In this document: positions 35,845 to 44,950 of the stretch, one piece after another
Position numbering within the stretch: the stretch's first letter is position 1
Layout of the letters: every line of letters begins with the position of its first letter
Made by a program: the position numbers and the translations under genes
Origin: Chloroflexota bacterium
GTDB taxonomy: Bacteria > Chloroflexota > Anaerolineae > Promineifilales > Promineifilaceae
Assembly: GCA_022616275.1 (NCBI GenBank)
Contig: JAKEFB010000115.1
Span: 32,814 to 96,813 of the forward strand
DNA length: 64,000 nucleotides
Direction of reading: 5' to 3'
Notes under the pieces: model-generated
The model's database searches: none
Told to the model about the DNA's origin: nothing
Seen by the model: the letters and a program-made list of their open reading frames with translations, nothing else

Positions 35845-38493
35845 TCAATACCGGCGGGGGGGTGGGATGTCTTCAAACAGCGCTTTGGCCTCTGTCGCCA
35901 GATCCATCCTTCCGCCCCGCTCCCAGAGCGCCGCGTATCTTTCTGCGCCTAGTTCCGCCTGTAGGCGGGCACGACATTCCGCTAGCAGTGGCCACTTTTC
36001 CATCCAGCCCCTGGCGCTGAGCGGATGGTTCTCGACCAGTCCCAATATCTCTACCGCCCGTTCTTTCTGGCCTTCGTGGGCAAGCAGGACGGCCGCGATA
36101 GGCAGCAGCCACGTCCAGGTGCCCCGTGTCCGGACCACTTGGGCGGCGGCGTATAGATGGTGCCAGGCAAGATCGTAATTGCCCGACCCGCAGTGGGCCA
36201 GCGCCAGGGGCCAGCCGCTATAGAAGATAGCCGGCGCCTTTGAAGAGCTTACTTCGCTTTCCTGGCCCAACGCCTGGCTCAGAACGTAATTGCCGGCGAT
36301 GCCGGCTACCAGGCTGAGAGCGGCTCGGGCTTGCGTGTTGGAGGGAGGGATATCGGCGATGGCCAACCCCTCCTCCGCCAGTTGCCTGGCTTTGTCCATC
36401 TCGCCCTTCAAGAAGTGAGCCAGAGCAAGCCCTGCTTTAGAGGACGTCAGGATGCTCAATGCCCCTGCTTCACTGGCAATGCCAACCGCTTGATGCCAAT
36501 ACTGTTCGGCGGCCGCATAGTCGCCCGTATGCTGCGCACCAAACCCGAGCAGAGTGAGTATTCCGCATTCATCTACTTTGCTCCCGGCCTGGCGCGTTAG
36601 CTCCAGGCATTCCCCCCTGAGCTTCATAATGTCAAGCCCTTGAAAATAGCCAAGGTAACTAACCATGTACAGGGCCCGTGCCATATAGAAGAGGTCGTTC
36701 AGTGCCCGGAAACGCTCAAAGCTTTCCTGGCTGGCCTTCAGACCGCTGGCAACGTCACCGGTGAGATCATGGTATGCGGCAAGCGCAAACAAGGAGAAAG
36801 CGATCTCCGCCTCGTCGCCCTGCTGCCGGGCGAGGGCCATCCCACCTTCCACATTCCTCTTGACCTCCTCGGCCGGCGCGATGAGGAACTTTTGTAATAT
36901 GGCCAGACGCGTGCTGATTCTTCCCCATACCGGACCTGGCTCCTCTCCTTCAAGTCGCGCCAATTTATCCTGGGCCAGGCGCAAAAGCTCGACACCTTCT
37001 TGAAATCGGCCGCGCATCTTAAAGAAGAGGAAGAGCACTTCCACCGCCCGATTGATGCCCTCGACATCTCCGCGTTGCGCCGCCCAGCGCCAGGCGGCGC
37101 GCACGTTCTCCAGGTCTGCTTCAATCTCAGCCAATGCCTCTAGCTGCCTCTGCCCTTTCAGGCCGGCTTCTTGTGCCTGGAGCCACTTCAGAAAGTAGGC
37201 GCTGTGCGCATCACGGGCGGTCTCACTCGAGCCGGCCGCCTTCAGTTTGTCCATTCCATAGCGGCGCAACAGTTCGTGCATCTCATAGCGGCCTTCGCGA
37301 GCCATGGTGAAAAAGGATTTATCGGCCAGCTTGCGGAGCACGGGCAGGCTGGCACCGGCCACGTCCTGCGCCGCCGGCCGGGTAAAGCCGCCGCGGAAGA
37401 CGGCTAGCTTCATAAACTGGTGCTGCTCTGCTTCCGGCAGCCGACTCCAGGAGTAGTCAAAGCTGGCCCGCACACTTCGCTGGCGCGGCGGCAGGTCCTG
37501 CAATTCACCTTCCAGGAAATCCAGGCCCTTGGCAATCTCCTCCGCAATTTCGGCCAGGGAAAGCAGTTCCAGCCAGCCGGCGGCCAGGACAATGGCCAGG
37601 GGCATTCCCTCCAGGAGCTGGCAGATGCGGAGGATCTGGCCGGTCTCTTCCTCACCAGGCTGCAGTTCAGGACGGACATGGCGGGCATGCTGAACGAATA
37701 GCTGGGCGGCGCTGTAAGCTTCTAGCCTGGCAGCGGGCAGGGCGTGACCGTTCTGGTCCCAGTCGGGGAAATCCATCTCATGCACCACGACGAGGACCTC
37801 ATTCTGAAGATTGAGACGCTCGCGAGACGTCACCAGAAGCTTCACGCCTGGCGCGCCCTGCAGCAATTCGGTCAACAGCTCAGCGCCATCCAGCAAATGC
37901 TCGAAGTTGTCCAGGACAAGCAGGATCTCTTTATTGCCTAGATAGCCCAGCAGTTGTTGTTTGGGTTCTTCTGGGTTGGAAAAGCGGAAGCCCAGCCGCT
38001 CAGCGATGGTTGCTGCGATGTGGTCCGGCGATTCGAGCGCTGCCAGCGGAACAAACGCAACGCCATGATGGAAGGCTTTCTGTGCCCGTGAAGCGGCCTC
38101 TAGCGCCAGCCGCGATTTGCCAATGCCGCCGGGACCGATGAGCGTCAAGAGGCGATGGCTGCGCTCCGCAAACAGCTTGCTAATGTCGGCAAGTTCCTGC
38201 TTGCGGCCGACAAACGGCGTGGCCGGCACCGGCAGGTTTTTCCTGAGAACTGAAGCCTGGGACCAGTCGTAGAAGGGTATGGAGGGTAAGAGACCCAGCT
38301 CTCTGCCCCTGGCCACGGCCCCGGTGCGGTTGCTCACATCCAGCTTGCCGAAGATCTGCCGGTTGTACCACTTCACCGTGCCAACCGTCAGCACCAGCGC
38401 CCCGGCAATCTCCGCATCGGTCAATCCCTCGGCAAGAAGGGACAGCACCTGCAATTCCCTGCTGGTAAGGAGTTCATACAGCTCTTCGCTCAT
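35845..38493 (-). CDS. LuxR-type STAND regulator with N-terminal HTH, AAA/NB-ARC and TPR
   Basis: An 882-aa regulator. The HTH is at the N-terminus (residues 1-65: LTSRELQVLSLLAEGLTDAEIAGAL...TVKWYNRQIFGKL), opposite to the classic LuxR/MalT order with C-terminal HTH. An ATPase follows with Walker A GPGGIGKSRLALE near 127 and Walker B LLVLDNFEHLLDGA near 205. The rest (about 430-870) consists of TPR-like helical repeats for ligand or protein sensing. Such proteins oligomerise on inducer binding. Target unknown; the gene is isolated on its strand. Confidence 0.88.
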   Translation of the reverse strand: MSEELYELLTSRELQVLSLLAEGLTDAEIAGALVLTVGTVKWYNRQIFGKLDVSNRTGAVARGRELGLLPSIPFYDWSQASVLRKNLPVPATPFVGRKQELADISKLFAERSHRLLTLIGPGGIGKSRLALEAASRAQKAFHHGVAFVPLAALESPDHIAATIAERLGFRFSNPEEPKQQLLGYLGNKEILLVLDNFEHLLDGAELLTELLQGAPGVKLLVTSRERLNLQNEVLVVVHEMDFPDWDQNGHALPAARLEAYSAAQLFVQHARHVRPELQPGEEETGQILRICQLLEGMPLAIVLAAGWLELLSLAEIAEEIAKGLDFLEGELQDLPPRQRSVRASFDYSWSRLPEAEQHQFMKLAVFRGGFTRPAAQDVAGASLPVLRKLADKSFFTMAREGRYEMHELLRRYGMDKLKAAGSSETARDAHSAYFLKWLQAQEAGLKGQRQLEALAEIEADLENVRAAWRWAAQRGDVEGINRAVEVLFLFFKMRGRFQEGVELLRLAQDKLARLEGEEPGPVWGRISTRLAILQKFLIAPAEEVKRNVEGGMALARQQGDEAEIAFSLFALAAYHDLTGDVASGLKASQESFERFRALNDLFYMARALYMVSYLGYFQGLDIMKLRGECLELTRQAGSKVDECGILTLLGFGAQHTGDYAAAEQYWHQAVGIASEAGALSILTSSKAGLALAHFLKGEMDKARQLAEEGLAIADIPPSNTQARAALSLVAGIAGNYVLSQALGQESEVSSSKAPAIFYSGWPLALAHCGSGNYDLAWHHLYAAAQVVRTRGTWTWLLPIAAVLLAHEGQKERAVEILGLVENHPLSARGWMEKWPLLAECRARLQAELGAERYAALWERGGRMDLATEAKALFEDIPPPRRY

Positions 38494-39492: not shown

Positions 39493-39774
39493 TCATTCAC
39501 TCTCAGGGTAGGTAGGCACATCCGGGCCGACAATCTCCCGGAAGAGGGCCAGGACTTCGCCTGGCTCGGCGTGGCGGCGCTGGATCGTCTTTTTAGAGAA
39601 GATGAGCGTGTCGTCAACACGTACTTCAAAAGCGCCTTTGCTGCCGGTAATGAGCGCCAGGCTCTCGATAACGTGTTGATAATTGCTGAGCAGGTCGTCC
39701 GTCACCCTGACGGCTCGCGACTCATAGTTTCAGGGGACGCAGTATTCAATCGAGATACGGTATTTTTTGTCCAT
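39493..39774 (-). CDS. SelW/Rdx-family selenoprotein (UGA = Sec15)
   Basis: A 93-codon frame interrupted once by TGA at 39730-39732. Read as Sec, the start is MDKKYRISIEYCVPU-NYESRA, the exact CxxU redox motif of the SelW/SelT/SelH (Rdx) family, followed by that family's C-terminal pattern GAFEVRVDDTLIFSKKT. Without the UGA the remaining frame would lack the motif and the first strand. A hairpin with 6 perfect pairs and a GGG loop (39699-39713) lies 22 nt after the UGA, as expected for a bacterial SECIS. The ribosome binding site is poor. No sel genes are in the window, so decoding is inferred. Confidence 0.8.
39699..39713 (-). promoter_or_regulatory. Putative bacterial SECIS hairpin of the SelW-like gene
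   Basis: On the minus strand CCGTCA-GGG-TGACGG, perfectly paired, with outer GTCG/CGAC pairs across a small internal loop. The loop begins with G and starts 22 nt after the UGA, within the range known for bacterial elements. Confidence 0.65.
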
Positions 39775-39844
39775 AGTGCCAGGTGTCAGGCGTCAAGTGC
39801 CAAGTGTCATGTATGACGAGCCGGCATCTTACCCCAATTCTGCC

Positions 39845-40821: not shown

Positions 40822-40894
<73 letters not shown>

Positions 40895-40920
40895 CTGCCG
40901 GGTTAACAACTTCATAAAGA

Positions 40921-41146: not shown

Positions 41147-41219
41147 GGGCCTGTAGCTCAGTTGGGAGAGCGCCACAATGGCATTGTGGAGGTCAAGGGT
41201 TCGAGCCCCTTCAGGTCCA
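41147..41219 (+). tRNA. tRNA-Ala (anticodon GGC)
   Basis: A 73-nt cloverleaf: acceptor GGGCCTG/CAGGTCC, anticodon stem CCACA/TGTGG with loop ATGGCAT (anticodon GGC), T arm AAGGG/CCCTT with TTCGAGC. CCA not encoded. It is nearly identical to the tRNA at 40822 in the acceptor, D arm and T loop, so the two are recent paralogues. It sits inside the T-box leader. Confidence 0.95.
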
Positions 41220-41230
41220 CAGACCATCAA

Positions 41231-42030: not shown

Positions 42031-44950
<2,920 letters not shown>

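Follow-up and report, generated by a model that had tools for sequence, protein, structure and literature searches.

A SelW-like gene in a Promineifilum-related Chloroflexota genome with an in-frame UGA very probably decoded as selenocysteine

Here, we describe a SelW-like gene of a Promineifilum-related Chloroflexota bacterium in which UGA codon 15 would be decoded as selenocysteine (Sec) with the help of a SECIS element lying downstream of it in the same mRNA, a reading that we regard as close to certain on the sequence evidence. Five observations were each established directly, namely the open frame, the match to the family, the presence of Sec genes in the genome, a column of Sec or Cys codons among homologues and a conserved hairpin. 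The predicted SECIS hairpin occurs in two placements among the relatives, and Sec use is widespread across the class.

Results

The gene lies on the minus strand of the window, i.e., the whole 64,000-nucleotide stretch of DNA that was analyzed (Table 1). Translated with UGA as Sec, it gives MDKKYRISIEYCVPUNYESRAVRVTDDLLSNYQHVIESLALITGSKGAFEVRVDDTLIFSKKTIQRRHAEPGEVLALFREIVGPDVPTYPESE, followed by TGA. The initial annotation had placed the UGA at the redox position of a CxxU motif in this frame and had assigned the protein to the SelW/SelT/SelH family. Direct reading and translation agree with the former, the N-terminal redox motif of the SelW/Rdx family being present as C12-V-P-U15, and profile searches agree with the latter: the Pfam Rdx profile (PF10262) spans the UGA, matching residues 6-78 and thus sequence on both sides of it, well above its cut-off (E 5.4e-18; 65.4 bits vs 22.6), and the NCBIfam model for SelT/SelW/SelH (TIGR02174) is passed with 53.6 bits against 34.2. 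The NCBIfam equivalog NF041051 scores 82.1 bits, 6 bits short of its cut-off of 88. Seven solved proteins matched by sequence, namely six of Rdx type (3dex, 2fa8, 2ojl, 2p0g, 2obk, and 2oka; E 1.7e-10 to 2.4e-3, with at least about two thirds of the query covered) and C17orf37 (2ljk). In the whole window genome, this gene is the only Rdx match. As had been anticipated, ordinary annotation would yield only the C-terminal 70 residues from a GTG, which is the ORF returned by translation table 11; because that product lacks the residues before the UGA, the whole CxxU motif is missing from it.

Table 1. Features of the SelW-like locus (positions of the window)
Feature	Position	Strand	Basis and remarks
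SelW/Rdx-family selenoprotein gene (predicted)	39493..39774	-	ATG to terminal TGA, 93 residues, Sec at position 15
UGA codon 15, predicted Sec, fourth position of CxxU	39730..39732	-	Aligned codon in 130 homologous loci
TGC codon 12, Cys of CxxU (C-V-P-U)	39739..39741	-	Sequence; Cys also in homologues displayed
70-residue GTG ORF, given by table 11 in place of the gene	39493..39705	-	ORF list, SelW frame
Predicted SECIS upper stem-loop CCGUCA-GGG-UGACGG	39699..39713	-	Five outer pairs conserved in relatives; RNAalifold
Possible extended SECIS, lower helix 39724-39720 with 39691-39687	39687..39724	-	Single-sequence fold only

A SelW homologue is present in 179 of the 397 genomes of the class (185 matches, with two in each of six genomes). 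The codon aligned to Sec was read in 130 of these matches, from 126 genomes (loci L020-L149): it is TGA in 123, TGT in six, and TGC in one, and in none is it TAA, TAG, or another sense codon. Within the family of the window genome, 26 of 32 genomes have a homologue, all 26 with TGA. Two expectations of the initial annotation can be set against this alignment. The Cys homologues at codon 15 that it had asked for were found (7 of 130), and homologues ending at the UGA with no conservation upstream, which it had named as evidence against the gene, were not (0 of 130), since all keep the family sequence upstream; residues immediately before the site (ISLEYC, IEYC) recur in frame among the homologues displayed. 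The Cys copies belong to G326 (two), G252, G351, G146, G153, and G200, and G252, G351, and G200 have a TGA copy as well. Among their matches, G326 (95% complete, with a single 5.63 Mb contig carrying its two matches) and G146 (95% complete) have Cys copies only, and neither tRNA-Sec nor selA was detected in these two genomes at the thresholds used. In G153, where tRNA-Sec is present, the sole SelW form is a divergent one with Cys (CTQC). G326 and G252 are in one genus (g173; L047, L055, L049, and L112), and G252 combines tRNA-Sec and selA with SelW in both a TGA and a Cys copy; a recent loss of the Sec trait is possible in this genus. Eight named relatives from a scan of genome contigs all have TGA at the Sec codon. 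One of these MAGs is named Chloroflexi (73% identity) and one Promineifilum (60%), five bear the names Acidimicrobiia, Acidimicrobiales, or Actinomycetes, and one is from Acidobacteria. The homologues of the last six (L152-L157) are 54-62% identical to the window protein, which is above many families of the window's own class, and horizontal transfer may have taken place.

The hairpin pairs 39713-39708 with 39704-39699 around a loop at 39707-39705. The 6-bp stem and GGG loop described initially thus exist; the distance of 22 nt given for the hairpin, however, is that from the UGA to the loop, whereas the stem starts after 16 nt. The bSECIS model, in the parts of PMC13188914 on which we draw, has a loop of 3-9 nt, the first two positions of which contain G, a stem of 4-16 bp, a spacing of 16-37 nt, and a minimum free energy of at most −7.5 kcal/mol (PMC13188914). 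At the window locus, a 6-bp stem closes a 3-nt GGG loop at a spacing of 22 nt, a layout that agrees with this model (PMC13188914), and the hairpin is SECIS-like also by covariation in relatives, with a reservation on energy: the bare 6-bp stem reaches −6.5 kcal/mol as compared with −7.5 kcal/mol in the model (PMC13188914). Folding including the lower helix gives −13.3 kcal/mol, no better than shuffled sequences, and the lower helix is absent from the family consensus. Likewise, the fold of the region had no excess stability over shuffles (z −0.17 and −0.43), and a search of 39600-39800 against Rfam gave no match at E up to 10. In the window, hairpins of this kind with a stem of at most −7.5 kcal/mol follow 149 (at least six pairs) to 195 (at least four pairs) of 1594 TGA sites, and the SelW hairpin itself fails that scan on energy. 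Single-sequence folding was rejected as proof of a SECIS element because it is not significant against shuffles, and the case for the element therefore rests on comparison with relatives. On its own, the hairpin is not beyond chance; the protein match around the UGA and the conservation in relatives are.

For this comparison, the 60 nt starting at the UGA were taken from the 123 Sec loci, which gave 121 distinct sequences. Counting the UGA as columns 1-3, the five outer pairs join columns 20-24 with 30-34. All five are formed in 87 of the 121 sequences, where 300 rounds of synonymous resampling gave 18.4 on average and at most 31, and in 26 of the 28 closest sequences (26 from the window family and two from another family; resampling mean 4.7, maximum 11). 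At slid positions, 0-10 of the 121 form them, and none of the seven Cys sequences does. In the alignment of the 28 relatives, RNAalifold picks the five-pair stem alone, the five pairs are formed in 98.6% of cells, and changes on both sides occur in two pairs (21-33 and 22-32), in three cells. None of 500 shuffles attained the covariation score, whereas 139 of 500 attained the number of further pair types, which is thus not unusual. Six pairs together with a loop of 3 nt whose first two letters are GU or GG are found in 52 of the 121, the loops being GTT in 24, GTC, GGT, and GGA in seven each, GGG and GTG in three each, and GTA in one.

These data also bear on a reading in which gene and frame are right and the hairpin arises as a side effect of conserved RAVRV codons and of GC-rich DNA, the true SECIS element lying elsewhere. 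It would agree with the nonsignificant single-sequence fold and with like hairpins following some 9-12% of the TGA sites in the window, and we nevertheless hold it to be very unlikely: the count in relatives lies far above the resampling maximum, the stem is missing in the seven Cys homologues, and the both-sided changes preserve pairing. On this comparative evidence, we take the hairpin to be, very probably, a bacterial SECIS element.

Among the 34 Sec sequences lacking the first placement, five pairs centered 4 nt closer to the UGA are formed by 28, and six have neither hairpin; synonymous resampling puts the second placement in 2.2 of the 34 on average and in no more than 7. Overall, it can form in 57 of the 121 (null mean 10.0, maximum 23), and 29 sequences can form both. 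Counted from the UGA, the loop of 5 nt starts at nt 22 in the first placement and at nt 18 in the second, for which CCGGGC-CGUGA-GCCUGG is an example. G374 and G133, two of the 28 closest relatives, break one pair of the first placement, and both form the second. By eye, L152-L157 (Actinomycetes and Acidobacteria) show CGCGC-CGUGA-GCGCG at the second placement; none of the seven Cys sequences has a hairpin there. Most simply, the element would have shifted its position over the RAV(R/S) codons in separate lineages. The 29 sequences compatible with both placements may represent intermediates, or shared sequence may account for the double fit.

The window assembly, which is probably a metagenome bin, has 8.53 Mb in 309 contigs and is 98.25% complete and 5.5% contaminated. 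The initial annotation had called for a search of the genome for selA, selB, selD, and tRNA-Sec(UCA), with absence of selB or tRNA-Sec from a complete genome counting against Sec decoding. All were found: a tRNA-Sec with anticodon tca (UCA; 70.2 bits), SelA (569 bits), SelB (334 bits), and SelD (366 bits). The selD gene (G000:C60:33807-34742; L016:1501-2436) has an in-frame TGA of its own (...ASCAGUASKLG...) at ASCAGU, which we take to be the usual Sec site in SelD, and SelD is therefore likely a selenoprotein itself. selB lies ~13 kb from selD on the same contig. tRNA-Sec, selA, selB, and selD are all on contigs other than that of the window, and given the contamination, an origin from a contaminant is conceivable in principle; however, tRNA-Sec is present in 26 of the 32 genomes of the window family, as many as have the SelW gene, and the trait thus belongs to the lineage.

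Across the class, tRNA-Sec was detected in 296 of 397 genomes (E up to 1e-9) and selA in 321 (E up to 1e-40; 316 above the curated cut-off). Among the 179 SelW-bearing genomes, 155 have tRNA-Sec and 174 have tRNA-Sec or selA. In 54 genomes of the class neither was detected, and five of these have a SelW gene: the Cys-only G326 and G146, G132 and G370 with a TGA SelW (86 and 85% complete, respectively), and G205 (77% complete), the codon of which lies outside the 130 read. The association between the gene and tRNA-Sec has a Fisher p of 4.9e-7, which is only indicative because related genomes are not independent. In 14 of the 15 SelW-bearing genomes of genus g141, the match to selA is broken into two parts and has weaker E-values, while tRNA-Sec is present and SelW has the internal TGA; selA may be split or interrupted in this genus.

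Around 38 loci (L020-L049 and L150-L157), stop-to-stop ORFs of at least 90 codons were clustered. Among the eight largest clusters, the biggest cover 14, 13, 11, and 11 of the 38 loci. Several consist of frames that overlap the SelW gene or of antisense frames; others, by eye, are presumably an alpha/beta hydrolase and a hydroxyacyl-CoA dehydrogenase. Because no neighbor in these eight clusters occurs in most of the loci, we do not propose a conserved SelW operon. Two tRNA-Ala genes lie close together on the plus strand of the window (40822-40895 and 41147-41220; anticodons cgc and ggc).

Discussion

We infer that UGA specifies Sec in the cell, and our proposals for the start codon, protein fold, and redox function are of the same standing. 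The claim of the initial annotation that this genome decodes UGA as Sec has gained support from the Sec genes and from the homologues and keeps its conditional wording here. In the mechanism that we suggest, translation would start at the ATG at 39774-39772, and seryl-tRNA synthetase together with SelA would charge tRNA(Sec), SelD providing the selenophosphate. SelB would bind the mRNA hairpin at 39713-39699 and bring Sec-tRNA(Sec) to the UGA at 39732-39730, so that Sec is inserted and translation runs on to the terminal TGA. The product would be a small protein, probably with a thioredoxin fold, in which Cys12-Val-Pro-Sec15 forms a selenol-thiol redox center and which most likely reduces disulfides or oxidized thiols together with thiol partners. 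The proposed fold, redox role, and decoding steps follow general knowledge of the SelW family and of bacterial Sec decoding.

Two further explanations concern the UGA itself. It might be read through as Trp or Cys, or by leaky suppression; Sec decoding is predicted here from sequence, which leaves room for such a reading in principle. Several observations make it exceedingly improbable. The long genes nearby at 42031-44478 (815 residues) and 35845-38493 (882 residues) are open under table 11 without an in-frame UGA, which shows that UGA does not generally serve as a sense codon. In addition, the codon exchanges only with Cys codons, the hairpin accompanies TGA and is missing from the seven Cys sequences, and the four Sec genes are present. 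That the UGA is a true stop, with the 70-residue GTG ORF as the real gene or with a decayed SelW pseudogene, agrees with table 11 ORF calling in the SelW frame and has hardly any probability left, because the codon is TGA or Cys throughout the 130 loci and never another stop, the upstream residues recur in frame, the CxxU motif would vanish, and the Sec genes are present.

Standard gene calling truncates this gene so that the entire active site is lost, and the locus is a clean example of this error. As the SelW gene occurs in 179 of the 397 genomes of the class, the annotation correction could apply widely. We lean slightly toward a broader picture in which the SECIS element has two placements and has slid along a fixed protein motif, perhaps by way of sequences able to pair in both, in which Sec use is widespread in the class, and in which SelW may count among the common genes of the class that annotation cuts short. 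Sec and Cys forms of one gene with a covarying SECIS element in two placements could also be used to train and test selenoprotein finders.

The underlying biology of SelW is already established, and the gene is very probably a further selenoprotein of a family long known. In the parts of the sources on which we draw, the SELENOW-like family (PF10262, CxxU) is listed among prokaryotic selenoproteins "predicted with high confidence" (PMC13188914), 10 SelW-like selenoproteins are counted, with three selenoproteins in three families for Chloroflexi (PMC1794560), and SelW-like genes with bacterial SECIS elements are described (PMC1088965). Mentions of SelW or of Chloroflex- were not found in PMC12013277 and PMC5029168, nor were Chloroflexi, Anaerolinea, or SelW in PMC5330540, and in all three the spelling SELENOW would escape such a search. 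Literature joining Promineifilum and selenocysteine was not found either, which says little given the limited coverage. The family and the SECIS mechanism having been described, the window gene adds one member. It shares with the bacterial SelW-like selenoproteins, as far as the portions of these sources go, the family, the size, the Sec position, and a SECIS element directly downstream of the UGA, whereas the solved Rdx-type proteins (3dex and the other five) are only distant relatives in sequence. As far as is known from these portions, only the host lineage, a Promineifilum-related Chloroflexota bacterium, and the local SECIS sequence set it apart from the known SelW-like selenoproteins.
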